Assembly: GCA_003645975.1 (NCBI GenBank)
Contig: QNDP01000005.1
Location: 1-17,688 of the forward strand
DNA from: Candidatus Hydrothermota bacterium
GTDB taxonomy: Bacteria > Hydrothermota > Hydrothermia > B15-G9
Reading direction: 5' to 3'
Length of the DNA stretch: 17,688 bases
This document shows positions 2,320 to 17,688 of the stretch, piece by piece (the first letter of the stretch is position 1; the number at the start of each line of letters is the position of its first letter). The position numbers and the translations under genes were made by a program. The notes below the pieces were generated by a model. It searched no databases. It was not told the origin of the DNA and saw only the letters and a program-made list of their open reading frames with translations.

Positions 2320-3879
2320 TTATCCCTGCTTTTGGATCAACTTTTCACGATATTCCGCCAATCCGGGGATCGGGAGGACGATGTGAAGTCCTTTGTTGCC
2401 ATGGAATTGGCATGCGATCTCACATGCAAGGCACTCGGTGCATTTGCCTTTTTTGACATCTTCTGGCTCGAGAGCGATGACCGGCTTGCCATCCTCGAGC
2501 TTTAAGACACCGGCCGCACACGCTTCGATGCACGGTTTGGACTCGCATTTTTCACAGGCCGCATGGTCTATCCAAATCTTGCCTGTCAGGGTCTCGATAA
2601 GATATTCGCCCTCTTTGGGTTGATATTCCTTGTGAGGCACGACCTTGTGAAGTTTTCGGCCGTTCTCCTCGACCAACTTTTTGAGCCTTTCGGCACAGAA
2701 GTCAGGCGAATCGTCCTTGCCATAGCCTTCGACTTTGCCCGGAATGTCCTTGAGATAGGTGTGAAGCAATTCGATGGCCTGCTCCTCCATGTTTCCGCCG
2801 ACGCGAAGGACGGCAGGGATCTCGATGTTGTCCTCAAGGAAGGCTTTGATGAGGCCTCTTGCAAGGTTGGTCTGTTCCTGAGAGGCAAGTCCTGAGCCCG
2901 AAGCGAAATATCCGACGATGTTCGGCTGCGAAAGGATGATCTTGGCGGCGCGATAGACCTTTGAGGCGGGCGGATTGCCGCTCGTGTCAGTGAAATTGGC
3001 AGGTTTAAATCCCTTGTTGATAACGGCATCCATAGACATCATCGAACCACCGCCACCACCGCCGTGAAATCCGATATGTTTTCCATCCGGTGGAACATCG
3101 AGCACCATCTGAATGAAGTAAAAAGTGCCACGATAATCGTCTTTTTCGACATTGAAAGCGATCTTTTCGAGTTCCGTAGCCGGGCGCGGCAGTTCGCGCG
3201 CAATCTCGATGTCGAGATCGGGATGTCGATAGACCGCATAATCGTCGATCACGATATGTGCATCGAGTGCAACAACTTCTCCGTCTTTTGTCAGGGCGAG
3301 CGGGTTTGTCTCAAGCGAACGGGCGTCATACATCACCATAGCCTTGTAAAGTTTGGCCAACGCATCTCCAATTTTGATCAACAATTTGCCTTTAATTCCG
3401 GCCTGTCTTGCAAGTTCGCGTCCCTGATAGCTGTAAAAGCCTTTGACCGGGTTGATGTGGGTCTTCGCTACGGCTTCAGGATGCTCTCGTGCGATCTCCT
3501 CGATGCCGACGCCGCCTATCGAGCTGAAGATCATCAATGGGCGCGCCTCAGCATCATCGACGATGATTCCAGCGAAAAACTCACGCTCAATTTCGAGTTT
3601 CTTTTCGACAAGCAACGCCTCGACGGTGAACTCGCCCCAGCGCATTCCGAGCATCTCGCCTGCCGCTTTGCGCACCTCGTCAGCGTTCTCGGCGAACCGC
3701 ACGCCGCCCTTGCCCGTCCGTCCAGTCTCCCAAATCTGAACTTTTAACACCACCGGATAGCCTATTCTCTCAGCAATTTCCACCGCTTCATCAACACTCC
3801 TTGCAACGCCGCCCTCTGGAATCTTTATCCCGACCTTTTTGAGGATTTCTTTTGATTGGTATTCAAAAAGTCTTGCCAT
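2320..3879 (-). CDS. Succinyl-CoA synthetase beta-like ATP-grasp protein fused to 2x[4Fe-4S] ferredoxin domain
   Basis: A 519-residue protein. Residues 1-210 match the ATP-grasp half of SucC: LFEYQSKEIL at the N terminus, GGV at 58-60, and ETNPL (190-194) where SucC has EINPL. Residues 262-380 match the CoA-ligase half: MSMDAVINKGFKPANF (281-296), AAKIILSQPN, VLRVGGNMEE. The usual GAGL-type loop is replaced by six glycines (273-278). A ferredoxin-like domain follows, with Cys442/445/450/454 (CX2CX4CX3C) and Cys480/483/486/490 (CX2CX2CX3C), enough for two [4Fe-4S] clusters. Standard SucC is about 390 residues and lacks it. The alpha partner, which carries the phospho-histidine in this family, is not in the window. 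The real substrate is unknown; a redox-linked acyl-CoA ligase in an anaerobe is inference. ATG 3879 is preceded by GGAGGA (3884-3889) with 4 nt spacing. The stop codon abuts that of recQ. Confidence 0.85.
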   Translation of the reverse strand: MARLFEYQSKEILKKVGIKIPEGGVARSVDEAVEIAERIGYPVVLKVQIWETGRTGKGGVRFAENADEVRKAAGEMLGMRWGEFTVEALLVEKKLEIEREFFAGIIVDDAEARPLMIFSSIGGVGIEEIAREHPEAVAKTHINPVKGFYSYQGRELARQAGIKGKLLIKIGDALAKLYKAMVMYDARSLETNPLALTKDGEVVALDAHIVIDDYAVYRHPDLDIEIARELPRPATELEKIAFNVEKDDYRGTFYFIQMVLDVPPDGKHIGFHGGGGGGSMMSMDAVINKGFKPANFTDTSGNPPASKVYRAAKIILSQPNIVGYFASGSGLASQEQTNLARGLIKAFLEDNIEIPAVLRVGGNMEEQAIELLHTYLKDIPGKVEGYGKDDSPDFCAERLKKLVEENGRKLHKVVPHKEYQPKEGEYLIETLTGKIWIDHAACEKCESKPCIEACAAGVLKLEDGKPVIALEPEDVKKGKCTECLACEIACQFHGNKGLHIVLPIPGLAEYREKLIQKQG

Positions 3880-4248: not shown

Positions 4249-4277
4249 TTGACGCTTATCCGCTGTTTCCATATCAT
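4249..4277 (+). promoter_or_regulatory. Putative sigma-70-type promoter for the NYN-murF-mraY-murD-ftsW unit
   Basis: TTGACG (4249-4254) and TATCAT (4272-4277) are 17 bp apart, 5/6 and 5/6 to consensus. Transcription should start near 4284, only a few bases before the ATG at 4288. No Shine-Dalgarno sequence lies between, which points to a leaderless or near-leaderless mRNA. The TTG at 4249, a possible start codon, is part of the -35 box. Confidence 0.6.
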
Positions 4278-4287
4278 ATTTGCCGCT

Positions 4288-5898
4288 ATGGATGCCAAAA
4301 TTGAGAAAATTTTGAAGAATTTCAAAGAGTCGTGGGACGCATATCCTATTGTGCGATGCATGTTTACACGCACAGAAATGATCGAAATATTGAGCCACAG
4401 TGGAATAACGCCTCGAGGCGGTAGAAGATTTTCCAATTTCCCGACTTCCGATTTGGCACTCGCAGTCTCAAATGTCATGGATTCTATGAGCAACAAGGAA
4501 CTACGCCACATTCTCAGCTCTTTCGTCAGGAAAAACAGCGACTTGATAGAGCGTTATTCAAAGATGTCCGTGTCGAAAATGCAGCAGTATCTCAACGGAA
4601 TTGTCCTTAAAGATGTGAATCCAAAGGAACTCGTCGCGATACTTTTTGCGGTTGTTATGGACAATCGAAAGAGCTTTAACGCTCTGAAGTCCAGGGTGTT
4701 AGCACTTGTCGAGGCCAAAACGCTGGACATGGACAAGGTTTGGGAAATAGGAAAAAGCAAGCCGCCTGTGAAGGAAGAGATCACTAAAACCGCATTGACT
4801 TCACTTTCACGCTTACAGACAAAATCCCAATCTCGCTCAACGAAGTCGGTGCTCGAAATAGAAAAGGAGATTGAGAAGTATCGAGAGAAGATCGAGGAAT
4901 ATCGTCGAAAATGCGATGATCTTATGCGCGAAATCGGACGCATTCGATCCAGAACGCAATCGATGCGCAAGCATGTCGATGAGATCAAAATGGAGCTTAA
5001 GGAGCTGCGAAGGCGAGAAGCAGAACTTATCCAAAAGAACAAGAAACTCGAACGCGAAAATCAGGAGCTTAAAGAACGCCTGAAAGCCCTTCAGCAACAG
5101 CAACCACCTTCGGAAACCGAACTTATGCTCAGATTGGAAAAACATATCCGAAAGTTGAGAGACTCTATGGACTACTATGTCCAAAAGTTGGGTTCTATCG
5201 AGGAACAGCATGCGCATGATGTCCAGAACATCCTGAACGAAATCTCTAAGCTGAAATCACATGTTATCGAAGTCCAAGAGTCTGCCGCTCAGGGGTTCGA
5301 TGCACAAAAAGATGCTCTACTGACCCTGTCAAAAGAACTTTCGGACCTCAGACACTCCGTGAACCGACTCGCTCATTCGATTGAGCGTGTCGAACACAAA
5401 GAACACAGAGAGACCACAGGCGGAAATCGGATAGGTGTGTTCGTAGATGTTCAAAATCTCTATTACGCTGCAAAGGATATGGGCGGCAAACCCGACTATC
5501 GGAAGCTCAAAGATTTCATCCTGAGCGGGCGCCGTCCGGTTGGACTTTACGCCTATGTCGTGATCAACCCTTCAACACCTGATCAAGAGCGGTTCCTGCA
5601 CTTCCTCGAAAACGAAGGGTTCACAGTTAAGTCCAGATTTGTCAAAAAGTTCTTCGATGGAAACATGAAAGGAAACTGGGACCTTGGGATCGCCGTCGAT
5701 ATGATCGAGCAGGCGGAGAAGATGGACATCGTGGCGCTTGTGTCAGGAGATGGGGATTTCGCCCCTGTCGTCAGAATGCTTCAAAGGATGGGTAAGAAAG
5801 TCGAGGTCTATTCGTTTGAAAACACAATTTCAAGCGAACTTAGGGAAGCAGCCGATATGTGCAAACTTTTGGATTTCAGCTTCATTATTCCGGAGTGA
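4288..5898 (+). CDS. Coiled-coil protein with C-terminal NYN (LabA/DUF88-type PIN-like) domain
   Basis: Predicted 536-residue cytoplasmic protein. Residues 1-180 are a helical region I do not recognise. Residues about 189-269 are a long, highly charged coiled coil, a Q/P break follows, and a second helical segment runs about 277-370. The C-terminal 155 residues are an NYN domain of the LabA/DUF88 group: GVFVDVQNL (Asp387), GNWDLGIAVDM (Asp465 and Asp471) and SGDGDF (Asp488 and Asp490). These acidic residues form the metal site in this PIN-like nuclease fold, so RNase activity is likely but the target is unknown. I chose ATG 4288 over an in-frame TTG at 4249 because that TTG lies in the -35 box. 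The gene is first in the unit and its stop is 7 nt before murF, whose ribosome binding site lies in its last codons. Its link to cell-wall synthesis is positional only. Confidence 0.82.
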   Translation: MDAKIEKILKNFKESWDAYPIVRCMFTRTEMIEILSHSGITPRGGRRFSNFPTSDLALAVSNVMDSMSNKELRHILSSFVRKNSDLIERYSKMSVSKMQQYLNGIVLKDVNPKELVAILFAVVMDNRKSFNALKSRVLALVEAKTLDMDKVWEIGKSKPPVKEEITKTALTSLSRLQTKSQSRSTKSVLEIEKEIEKYREKIEEYRRKCDDLMREIGRIRSRTQSMRKHVDEIKMELKELRRREAELIQKNKKLERENQELKERLKALQQQQPPSETELMLRLEKHIRKLRDSMDYYVQKLGSIEEQHAHDVQNILNEISKLKSHVIEVQESAAQGFDAQKDALLTLSKELSDLRHSVNRLAHSIERVEHKEHRETTGGNRIGVFVDVQNLYYAAKDMGGKPDYRKLKDFILSGRRPVGLYAYVVINPSTPDQERFLHFLENEGFTVKSRFVKKFFDGNMKGNWDLGIAVDMIEQAEKMDIVALVSGDGDFAPVVRMLQRMGKKVEVYSFENTISSELREAADMCKLLDFSFIIPE

Positions 5899-13415: not shown

Positions 13416-14771
13416 TTAGTTAGAACAGGTGAGTGGAATTTGTGCCATGATTTCAAACACATCCGTGTCAGTCCACTCGTTTAGGGCATCATCAAGCGCA
13501 GCTTCATAAGGGATCCCGTCAACAGCGGATGAGTTCTCCAACCCACCAGCAACCCAACATTTTATGTTGATGACATCGGTCTGTAGCATCCCGCCTATCA
13601 TGTCCCAAGGGATAGCTATCTCGATGGCCGCCAATCCGTTGCGCTGATCACCGGTGAACGCATATTGGCTGTTCTGTAAGTCATGATACTCCCATCCTCC
13701 GGCTGTGAATTCACATAGCTGTGCAGCACCTATATCCGCAGTCTCCGCATTCCACCAGAAATAGACTTCGTAATCCACACCGACGCCCGAAAATCCTATC
13801 AGCCGGTTCCAGCAATCGACTGTGTCATCCTCGAAGCCGCCGTCTCGAATGTCCAACGCAATACCATAGGCCAACTCCCAATTGGACAGGTTGTAGGTCG
13901 AGATGGCTATGTAGAGGTTTTGGTCATCGTAAGCTGCATAAAGCCCATGAAGGTTGGCGCCTTGCAAATCAGGAGATGAGATCTGCGATGTGTCAATAAG
14001 TTGCCATCCCTCAGATAGATCTATCACGCCATCCAAGACGATGCCTCCGGTGGTGGGTTCAAGTCGGAGGATGACTTCTGTCGTTTCACCCTGAGCAACA
14101 AAGACATCGAAAGCGGTATCCGAGACATATCCGGAAGCCGCTGCGATTACAGTGTAAGTTCCTTCACTTAGTCCGGTAAACTCGAAGTCGCCGTCAAGCG
14201 TATCCGAAGTCGTTGATTTTACCAAACTACCAGAGGTGTCAAGCAGGCTGACAGTAGCTGTCGGATAGGGTGGGGAGTCGATATCCGTAAATTCAACAGT
14301 TCCGATAATGACTCCGCCAAGCTCCTGTTGGACCAGCTCAAACTCATAATAGAGTGTGTTTTCGTTAAAAGTTACCCTCCAGAGACCGGATTGTGGAATG
14401 GAAACCTCTATATGCTGACCGAGTCCGCTGGCGTTTGGAACAGCATATCCTGTCAGACTATCGGGTTTAACCACATGGGTATCGCCGTAAGCCACTTCCC
14501 AATTTCCGTTTGGAACAAATTTGAACTGAACCATTCCTTCTGTGAGCCTTTGTTCGGTCTGCCAAGTCCAGTCGTCCACGAGTTCCATCAACGGGGCGTT
14601 CTCCAGATCCCAATCGTTGAAACTCCCGACAAATTGCATCTTTTGCCAGTTGGTAAGGAATCGTCCTCCCGGTGGACTGAAATCCGGCTCGTTCAGCTCC
14701 TTGCATCCCTCGAACAAAAGAGCTGAGAGTGTCAACACACTGAGCAACACATATAAAATTTTGCGGTTCAT
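13416..14771 (-). CDS. Predicted multidomain lipoprotein: CBM48/E-set-like, carboxypeptidase-regulatory-like, DOMON/CBM9-like
   Basis: A 451-residue protein of unknown function. It has a positively charged N terminus and hydrophobic stretch ending at Cys23 (LLFEGC), a plausible but non-ideal lipobox because of Glu at -2. Residues about 45-145 resemble the glycogen-binding E-set fold, with VGSFNDW and VQFKFVPNGNWEVAYGD. Residues about 152-240 resemble a carboxypeptidase-regulatory beta-sandwich, with GTVEFTD, GDFEFTGLSEGTYTVIA and ASGYVSDT. Residues about 243-440 look like a DOMON/CBM9-type sandwich, with LDGVIDLSEGWQL, LYAAYDDQNLYIAI and AAIEIAIPWDMIG. The whole suggests an outer, ligand-binding envelope lipoprotein. 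Strong AGGAGGA site (14777-14783). It lies 30 nt downstream of the small membrane protein, last in its unit. Confidence 0.72.
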   Translation of the reverse strand: MNRKILYVLLSVLTLSALLFEGCKELNEPDFSPPGGRFLTNWQKMQFVGSFNDWDLENAPLMELVDDWTWQTEQRLTEGMVQFKFVPNGNWEVAYGDTHVVKPDSLTGYAVPNASGLGQHIEVSIPQSGLWRVTFNENTLYYEFELVQQELGGVIIGTVEFTDIDSPPYPTATVSLLDTSGSLVKSTTSDTLDGDFEFTGLSEGTYTVIAAASGYVSDTAFDVFVAQGETTEVILRLEPTTGGIVLDGVIDLSEGWQLIDTSQISSPDLQGANLHGLYAAYDDQNLYIAISTYNLSNWELAYGIALDIRDGGFEDDTVDCWNRLIGFSGVGVDYEVYFWWNAETADIGAAQLCEFTAGGWEYHDLQNSQYAFTGDQRNGLAAIEIAIPWDMIGGMLQTDVINIKCWVAGGLENSSAVDGIPYEAALDDALNEWTDTDVFEIMAQIPLTCSN

Positions 14772-15233: not shown

Positions 15234-17688
15234 TTATTTCGATTCTCCGAACACCGAGTTTCCAATGGTAATGGACGATGTTGACAAAGGGAAATCCCAC
15301 AGAAGGCTACCTCCCTTAAATACTTGCTGTTTGCCGTGAGACGAGGAGTTTATAGAATTTAAAAGGAATTTTTCGAGTTCGCTGAACATCACAACCCCAT
15401 TAGAATCAATGTCGGCTTCCCCTTTAAGACCTTTCATAGTCCGCTCCGCAAAGAGAGTAGTCTTTCCATCCGAGGATATTATCGACACCGATTGTCCCGC
15501 CGTGGAGACGAGTAATCTTATCCGTCTATGCCCATATTCAAGAGGAACAGTGGAAAGCAGTCGATTCAAGGATAATGCGATATCGCTTTTGTCCAAACTT
15601 ATGTTTTTGTAGAAACTTTTGACATTTTCTACCGCAGTTGGATTAACTGCATCCACTATCATGCAAATATTCGGCGGAAATGACAGAGGGGTAAGTAGTT
15701 TCATAACTGTCCTCAAGGATAGACTTGTGCTTGATAAGTTGCTCATTCGCGTATCACTGGTCAAAAAGTAAATATCATCATTGTAGGTAGGTTCATAAAA
15801 TGCTTGGCCGAAATATACAAACAATACACTGCTGTTATATGCGTTTTGAGCCTTTATAGCTATCCTTCTAATTTCGGCCTCGATTTGTTCAGATGTCGCT
15901 TCAGTGCCTATGAGCAACACGATGTTCTCAATGGGAATGTTAAGTGTATTTATCAAAGTCTGATAGAATTCCCGTGCTGCATCGATAGCATAATCTGTCG
16001 GGATAATCCCGCCGTCACGGTAACTTCTATCAACTCCAATAATCACAACAAAAAGTTTGTCGAGTTCACCCTTCTGAACAATGAATTTTCGTTCAAAAAT
16101 GAACCGGGGGAAGTCTTTGACCTTTAGTGTGATGATGTAAAGCCCGTCCTCATCAAGATTTGGTACAGAAAGCTTAAAATAGAACACTTGCTTTCCCTCA
16201 AATTCTCCTTTTGGCACGAGGCTGTCTGGTCTTATGAGGGTAAATGGGGACTCGTTATGACCACCAACTGGTTGCACTTTTATCCAGAAATCCAATACGC
16301 TATTTTGCGCTGATACATATCCCTCAAGCCAAAGTGTTCCATCAGGTGGTATTCTAATGATTCCCCCCGAAATTTCAGGACTTATGATCTCTATGCCAAG
16401 TGGGGGGACACTCCTAAAGTTGAGAGCGCTATGGCTATCAACTTGATTGGGATAGCTGCTGCTCGATGTGGTGACCACGATGTCGTCAGTTCTCTTTGGA
16501 GTGTTGTTTGTGATAACTTTCGAGGTATCCCGAACCCTCGCGATGTTCGAAGAAGCGGTGTCTTGAGGAACAACAGGCTCAGCATGGTCAACCTCATCGA
16601 CATCGATAGGATGACTTGACTCTGTATCGGTAATTTCGACCTCGTGGAAGTCGGCGAATTCGGGGCTTTTCTGCTCTGGGAGCTGTGCTCCATAAGGTGC
16701 CACTTCCGGATACGAGACCTCGATTGTATAAACCACGCCGGGATAGGCGCCCACCACGAGTTTCGAGCCGCTCAGATCCATGCCCCTGATAGGCGTAGGA
16801 AATCTCAAGGAATCGGTGAGCTGTAACAGAACAGTTTGAGGCAGTGCATATTCCGGGGTGATGGTCGCATTCACCCGATACGCCCTCACCTTATGGACAG
16901 TTGCGACAAGGAGCCAAAGGCCGTCTTCGGAGAACTTCAGGGAAGTTACAGGCTCCAAAAATTCTTCTGTCAAAATCAGTTCGTCCTCCTTATCCGCATT
17001 CTGCTTCAAAAAATACAGTTTTCCTCCATCTGTGCCGACAAAAATTGCCCGATCGTCAGGCGAAACGGCGACAGCGGTAACACGCCCGTCGAGCTTGTGC
17101 CTCTTTATTTTTCGCTGGGGGCTGAACATGTTTTCGATTTTGTAAACGCATGAATCCTCTGTGCCCAGAATCACCCATTGGTCTGAGCCGCCGAAATCGA
17201 TCGACAAAACGGCTGCGTCTCCCAAATCAAAAGAAGCGGCTTTGGTAAGATCACCTGCATTGAGGATCAAAACCTTCCCTTCATAACCTGCAATTCCTAT
17301 GTATCTTTTGCTCTTGCTGTATCTCAGGGTCTGAATGAAAAAATCCTGTTTGTATCTGCGGCCAGAATAGGTTCCGTTCTGTAACCTAAATTTTATCAAG
17401 CTGCCGAGAGAAGTGCCGCCGACAACCTCCTTTTCATCGAAGTCTCTGTCAAAGGTCGTAACGAATTCCTCCCTAAGTTCCTCAAGCACCTCGATTATCC
17501 CGATTTTTTTGAAAGGGTTCATGTCCCAAAGCTGTATTTCGCCCAGAGGCGTAGCCACAAAGATGTGCTGTGGGGTTGCACCGAATGAGATGGAACTTAT
17601 GTCATTGGTGAACAATGGCTTGGACTCTATCTCGTAATTTTTACTGACAGAATCTATCAGGAAAGTCAAAAAGTTAGCCTCATCTCCC
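15234..17688 (-). CDS. Beta-propeller protein with Ig-like and catalytically dead caspase-like domain, 5' end outside window
   Basis: The frame is open to the window's right edge (upstream codons read GDEANFL), so the gene is partial; the TTG at 17669 is used only for numbering (811 residues from there). Residues about 20-320 contain WD40/beta-propeller repeats (GEIQLWD, GYEGKVLILNA, VTAVAVSPDDRAIFVGTDGGKLYF, VTSLKFSEDGLWLLVAT). A Ser/Thr/acidic linker follows (about 325-420), then an Ig-like sandwich (about 425-530). Residues 537-775 have the caspase fold: KLFVVIIGVDRSY, TDYAIDAAREFYQTL, VLFVYFGQAF, DDIYFLTSD, NICMIVDAVN and LLVSTAGQ. The catalytic His position holds Gln622 (FGQA for SGHG) and the Cys position holds Val675 (DAV for DAC). 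Residues 753-764 form an EF-hand-like loop, DIDSNGVVMFSE. First gene of a three-gene unit; function unknown. Confidence 0.78.
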   Translation of the reverse strand, partial: GDEANFLTFLIDSVSKNYEIESKPLFTNDISSISFGATPQHIFVATPLGEIQLWDMNPFKKIGIIEVLEELREEFVTTFDRDFDEKEVVGGTSLGSLIKFRLQNGTYSGRRYKQDFFIQTLRYSKSKRYIGIAGYEGKVLILNAGDLTKAASFDLGDAAVLSIDFGGSDQWVILGTEDSCVYKIENMFSPQRKIKRHKLDGRVTAVAVSPDDRAIFVGTDGGKLYFLKQNADKEDELILTEEFLEPVTSLKFSEDGLWLLVATVHKVRAYRVNATITPEYALPQTVLLQLTDSLRFPTPIRGMDLSGSKLVVGAYPGVVYTIEVSYPEVAPYGAQLPEQKSPEFADFHEVEITDTESSHPIDVDEVDHAEPVVPQDTASSNIARVRDTSKVITNNTPKRTDDIVVTTSSSSYPNQVDSHSALNFRSVPPLGIEIISPEISGGIIRIPPDGTLWLEGYVSAQNSVLDFWIKVQPVGGHNESPFTLIRPDSLVPKGEFEGKQVFYFKLSVPNLDEDGLYIITLKVKDFPRFIFERKFIVQKGELDKLFVVIIGVDRSYRDGGIIPTDYAIDAAREFYQTLINTLNIPIENIVLLIGTEATSEQIEAEIRRIAIKAQNAYNSSVLFVYFGQAFYEPTYNDDIYFLTSDTRMSNLSSTSLSLRTVMKLLTPLSFPPNICMIVDAVNPTAVENVKSFYKNISLDKSDIALSLNRLLSTVPLEYGHRRIRLLVSTAGQSVSIISSDGKTTLFAERTMKGLKGEADIDSNGVVMFSELEKFLLNSINSSSHGKQQVFKGGSLLWDFPLSTSSITIGNSVFGESK

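Follow-up and report, generated by a model that had tools for sequence, protein, structure and literature searches.

The bacterial caspase-fold (p20) proteins closest to the one described here are the pseudo-orthocaspases of cyanobacteria and Rhizobiales, in which the catalytic His-Cys dyad is replaced (by YS, YN, YA, FS or rarer pairs) and which are thought to derive from active relatives (PMC6426788, PMC8283722). The dyad is missing from 28% of 473 cyanobacterial orthocaspases, with YS, YN and 16 other pairs in its place (PMC8283722), and, by an earlier survey that PMC6426788 cites, from 16% of p20 sequences of prokaryotes; PMC6426788 ties pseudo-orthocaspases to phototrophs. Most of the cyanobacterial ones have no partner domains, and WD40 accompanies 1 of 133 pseudo-orthocaspases and 82 of 340 true orthocaspases in that group (PMC8283722); among putative bacterial metacaspases the share with WD40 is 10.9% (PMC3501461). 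Pseudo-orthocaspases can matter, since knockout of one in Synechocystis raised tolerance of oxidative stress (PMC7889975). Here we analyse a 17,688-nucleotide stretch from a Candidatus Hydrothermota bacterium (the window; G000:C5:1-17688), one end of which carries a gene for a protein with a WD40 propeller, an immunoglobulin (Ig)-like sandwich and, like the pseudo-orthocaspases, a p20 domain whose dyad is replaced.

The C-terminal domain of this protein is a caspase-fold p20 homologue by sequence profile and predicted structure, which bears out an earlier note on this DNA. Against a profile built from 124 intact p20 rows it scores 98-102 bits, where the best of 500 composition shuffles reached 3.2 bits; the first seed profile of intact p20 domains gives it 103.8 bits. 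Pfam Peptidase_C14 (12.6 bits, curated cut-off 21.4) and NCBIfam caspase_w_EACC1 (17.3 bits, cut-off 140) stay below threshold on the window protein. The structure models, which drew on alignments containing intact caspases, and the homology to intact p20 profiles both place the domain in the caspase-hemoglobinase alpha/beta fold.

Both catalytic residues have been replaced in this domain. In an alignment of 131 p20 rows, H fills the His column in 124, P in five, Q in one and E in one, and the Cys column holds C in 124, V in six and N in one; the E/N row is P0125, a different protein, and the remaining exceptions are the window and its clade. Grouped by type, the Cys column is C in 124/124 intact rows and V in 6/6 pseudo rows. 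Because the rows were drawn largely from a search seeded by an intact paralogue, these shares are uninformative on how often the dyad is lost in general. The earlier note had located the losses at Gln622 and Val675, counting from a TTG; our numbering runs six higher (Gln628 and Val681), and both replacements lie at the codons it gave, in a frame that is indeed open over 2.4 kb. Its reading of SGHG as FGQA, with Gln in place of His, is right that the His has gone and less secure in register: MAFFT puts Gln628 in the His column in three alignments and Ala629 in a smaller one, a profile hidden Markov model (HMM) puts Ala629 there, and an ungapped comparison with the intact WOR-3 relative L084 (YFAQHG) favours Ala629. 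Because the alignments differ by one residue, the His position is Gln628 or Ala629, and the match of FGQA to SGHG may be one residue off. The profile HMM also shifts P0007 by a gap, leaving I rather than P in its His column.

One of the two S1-pocket Asp residues is replaced. At the position of Asp95 of TbMCA2, D occupies 123 of the 124 intact rows (the remaining one has a gap), A the window and S the other five pseudo rows, and at that of Asp211 (Asp679 here) all 124 intact and all six pseudo rows have D. With no His-Cys dyad, Ala for Asp95 and only Asp211 kept of the pocket pair, the domain falls outside the definition of active orthocaspases; it does have the substituted dyad in a p20 domain that marks a pseudo-orthocaspase. 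Another His/Cys pair at the site, for which the earlier note had allowed, was not seen in the window sequence: the only His residues after residue 517 are H720 and H784, with none near the former site in sequence, and the sole Cys of the domain is C675, six residues ahead of Val681. Judged on its residues, the p20 domain is very probably not a conventional protease.

Relatives carry a dead site of the same kind. Of 60 related genomes searched, 6 gave a match. In the three other genomes of the window's family, the top match is in each case a frame of 1109-1144 residues that keeps the window's domain order, and the reverse search brought back the window gene. A protein search yielded four clade clusters: P0005 is the protein of one of these genomes (G001), P0006 and P0008 are almost identical to the proteins of two others (G002 and G003), and P0007 belongs to a separate record. 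Each has FAP at the His loop and D(A/G)V at the Cys, so alignment of the two columns extends the loss of both catalytic residues from the window to the four other clusters. A branch of the p20 tree sets these four and the window apart from the remaining rows (support 90/96; 96/89 with the dyad columns masked). A clade profile built from four rows matched 17 of 147 genomes of the phylum. Outside the clade, 53 of 54 p20 rows have both H and C and the 54th ends before the Cys, counting only matches with the locus covered, several of which are one gene in overlapping loci. Protein searches, whose candidates must share words with the query, returned only the window for window residues 425-817 and only the four clade clusters for P0002 residues 790-1143. 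Replacement of the dyad and the S1 Asp together has so far been seen in one WOR-3 family and closely resembling protein records.

Purifying selection maintains the dead domain in the sister genus. Between P0002 and P0003 its omega (ratio of nonsynonymous to synonymous rates) is 0.070 at a synonymous divergence (dS) of 0.34, compared with 0.092 for the Ig-like part, 0.145 for the propellers and 0.25 for the linker; the p20 of an intact paralogue in the genomes of these two proteins gives 0.051. The earlier view that the gene is not decaying thus agrees with selection on the dead p20 between two relatives. Over 1138 residues of P0005, P0007 and P0008, the most conserved 21-mer is the former catalytic-His loop (GDTGlVIVGlFAPaiiDPQNP), in which 16 of 21 positions are invariant, against 13 in the runner-up among stretches 15 or more residues away; over the whole length the fraction is 0.23. 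In that genus, constraint on the protein is therefore strongest where catalysis was lost.

The protein is likely exported, as read from the starts of homologues, the 5' end of the window gene being missing. A simple hydropathy scan of the four homologues whose starts are complete shows a hydrophobic stretch close to the N-terminus in each, as in the two intact siblings tested. Since a dead site of the same kind is kept in relatives under strong selection, the p20 domain is probably a binding part and not a protease. Our preferred reading, which as a whole statement we hold to be reasonably probable, is that the window encodes a pseudo-orthocaspase that acts as a probably exported WD40, Ig-like and p20 adaptor, with the remodelled catalytic loop as its binding surface. 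Export would deliver the protein to the periplasm or cell surface, the loop would supply the surface, and the propeller and pseudo-p20 would bridge a partner and either a second partner or a ligand. A more specific version, in which a propeller-borne orthocaspase became an extracytoplasmic receptor or adaptor whose new ligand site lies in the rebuilt loop, now the tightest-constrained part of an 1100-residue protein, where the protease site was, is tentative and falls a little short of an even chance. WOR-3 is a candidate phylum that we take to be non-photosynthetic. The pseudo-caspase scaffold or sensor of the earlier note survives as a binding part or scaffold, the most sensible reading of the fold, the lost dyad and the lack of decay, and is not specifically supported as a sensor of calcium.

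Several observations weigh against this adaptor reading. Over the alignments the window shares no more than 19-24% identity with its clade relatives, which are thus no closer to it than some intact p20s are (26% for P0014). Long branches meet in the p20 tree, as the tree program warned, and without the clade relatives the window has no firm place in it. Together these points leave some room for independent losses of the dyad. Selection was measurable between relatives and not for the window's own gene, and constraint on the loop is likewise shown for the relatives, the window loop being different in sequence (GQAFYEPTYND, for FAPxxxDPQNP in the relatives). The hydrophobic N-terminus, a crude test, is also found in 89 of 116 intact relatives. 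The gene neighbours of the window differ from those in G001 and G002, and no partner or ligand of the pseudo-p20 protein is known.

A first alternative is that the dead p20 acts as c-FLIP(L) does, pairing with intact sibling caspases as a heterodimer or blocking the active one. We think this unlikely. The fold match on which it could draw is uninformative on pairing, as many caspases score alike; the intact siblings sit on other contigs; and PMC6426788 argues that regulation of their active relatives is most likely not a role of prokaryotic pseudo-orthocaspases. As separate observations on p20 proteins in these genomes, three on other contigs of the window's genome (L024, L025 and L068) have intact His and Cys, two of them with propeller-type repeats; a sibling in G003 (L026, contig C71) has Ala for the Gly after the catalytic His (AMHA) and keeps His and Cys; and L062 and L068, from two genera, are a diverged pair (ATHG, DAC) grouped at 99/99 on long branches. 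In a defence-system library the window protein, P0005 and the 139-amino-acid (aa) neighbour of the window gene were unmatched, and two intact siblings matched the PADLOC 'caspase' model.

The protein could instead be a calcium-responsive sensor, in which the EF-hand-like loop binds Ca2+ and shifts the binding state of the p20 domain, as the earlier note had suggested. The loop it placed at residues 753-764 is present (759-770 in our numbering), flanked by two helices, and is complete under a strict pattern in all six pseudo rows. It is equally complete in 79 of 124 intact rows, where the first Asp is D in 112/124 and the last Glu E in 114/124, and the Pfam EF-hand model reaches 11.8 bits on one homologue, below its cut-off of 25.9. 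Since the loop is common among intact enzymes, its presence is no sign that the dead version senses calcium; it is a trait of the wider family, possibly structural. Calcium responsiveness is thus not specifically supported, and we regard this alternative as distinctly improbable.

Strong conservation of the site region in the sister genus would also suit a cryptic enzyme in which a different residue took over catalysis, which is very improbable given Val at the nucleophile place in every pseudo row, P, Q or A at the base place, the lack of any further Cys/His pair close in sequence to the window's site and loss of the S1 Asp. A decaying gene or contig-end assembly artefact, to which a frame reaching the contig end and the long window branch could be put down, is scarcely credible and was rejected, since three other genomes, and protein records apart from them, hold full-length relatives with a like dead site, purifying selection acts between two of these relatives, and the frame runs 2.4 kb without stops.

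Table 1. Features of the pseudo-orthocaspase gene and the gene that follows it (window coordinates)
Feature	Position	Strand	Basis and remarks
WD40 / Ig-like / pseudo-p20 gene	15234..17687	-	817 codons + stop, 5' end missing; open frame, Pfam, profile HMM, models
WD40 beta-propeller, residues ~20-325	16713..17630	-	PF00400 30.6 bits (cut-off 27); Foldseek matches to WD40 proteins
Low-complexity linker, residues ~330-428	16404..16700	-	mostly pLDDT (predicted local distance difference test) <50
Ig-like beta-sandwich, residues ~430-540	16068..16400	-	strands in both models; Ig-fold chains among weaker Foldseek matches
Caspase-fold p20 domain, residues ~542-803	15279..16064	-	profile HMM and models
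Ala570 at S1-pocket Asp position (Asp95 of TbMCA2)	15978..15980	-	alignment column; role from PMC6426788
Former catalytic-His loop, residues 621-641	15765..15827	-	no His; Gln628 or Ala629 in His column
Gln628 codon (FGQA for SGHG)	15804-15806	-	candidate His-column residue
Val681 replacing catalytic Cys (DAV for DAC)	15645..15647	-	alignment column
Asp679, pocket Asp kept (Asp211 of TbMCA2)	15651..15653	-	alignment column
EF-hand-like loop, residues 759-770, D-I-D-S-N-G-V-V-M-F-S-E	15378..15413	-	strict pattern; helix-loop-helix in model
Next gene, 139 aa	14802..15221	-	12 bases past stop; signal-peptide-like start, coiled coil, one hydrophobic segment near C-terminus, as read from sequence

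The open frame reaches past the window edge and, because that edge is also the contig end, the true start of the gene is missing. Recovery of the 5' end, as proposed in the earlier note, did not succeed: full-length P0002, searched against the window's genome, matched nothing there but the window gene and, weakly, one WD40 sequence on a different contig. In the full-length homologues, two Pfam propeller regions precede the linker. Pfam and Foldseek agree on WD40 membership of the window protein, WD40 being the sole Pfam family above cut-off; no Pfam Ig family was found up to E 1, and the Ig-like sandwich is seen in the model only.

The 139-aa coiled-coil protein is a possible partner of the pseudo-p20 protein. 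Its family, with RFE-x-I repeats and a WDRR motif, is scattered in WOR-3 genomes (relatives in 6 of 41 searched, with three matches in the window's genome). Among 12 loci with relatives of this gene, taken with about 1.5 kb on each side, a p20 gene stands only at the window's own locus, so the link is positional and particular to the window's genome. In G001 and G002 the neighbours of the pseudo gene are an outer-membrane efflux (OEP) gene, placed tail to tail with it, and, close by, an NFACT-type gene; a conserved neighbourhood was rejected on these differing neighbours and on the 139-aa relatives away from p20 genes. Elsewhere in the window, a lipoprotein-like 451-aa protein (13416-14771, minus strand; CarboxypepD_reg 46.9 bits, carbohydrate-binding matches below cut-off) may share an operon with its two upstream neighbours. 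A 519-aa succinate-CoA ligase beta-like ATP-grasp protein (2320-3879, minus strand; 264 bits, SucC cut-off 370) has a weak C-terminal 4Fe-4S match (Fer4_9 21.1 bits, cut-off 27) and two Cys-rich clusters. The gene at 4249-5898 (plus strand) encodes a protein with a long coiled coil and, C-terminal to it, an NYN domain (116.6 bits), and lies upstream of genes that read from sequence as MurF-, MraY-, MurD- and FtsW-like.

Compared with described pseudo-orthocaspases, the clade recalls YS members, which have an N-terminal stretch resembling an export signal, in the hydrophobic start of its complete homologues, and differs in its dyad: Pro-Val or Ala/Gln-Val is absent among the 18 cyanobacterial dyads, none of which has Val at the Cys or Pro at the His place (PMC8283722). 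Both pocket Asp residues are reported to be conserved in cyanobacterial pseudo-orthocaspases, the Asp95-like one highly (PMC6426788), so the WOR-3 clade, which has lost the Asp95-like residue, departs further from the enzyme. The clade also differs in its fusion to WD40 and Ig-like parts. MALT1 paracaspase differs in being active and eukaryotic, and the window protein has no Pfam Ig family beside its p20, the arrangement that defines a paracaspase in PMC6426788. A literature search over titles and abstracts found no description of this clade and no paper naming WOR-3 and caspase together. Intact WD40 orthocaspases (L025, L021, P0009-P0013) have a similar order, with hydrophobic N-terminus, propeller, linking segment and C-terminal p20 with EF-hand-like loop, but keep H, C and the S1 Asp. 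The dead proteins c-FLIP(L) and TbMC4 are eukaryotic, work with active partners and carry other partner domains. They retain a dead caspase fold for a role tied to other proteins (PMC6426788), as is proposed here for the clade. Pseudo-orthocaspases themselves are established; new here is a propeller-fused one, common to the genomes of one family, in which dyad and S1 Asp are all replaced. The WOR-3 group suggests that dead bacterial caspases can be retained for a different binding task and directs attention to one short loop. It bears on the origins of pseudoenzymes and on non-cleaving roles of bacterial caspase folds.
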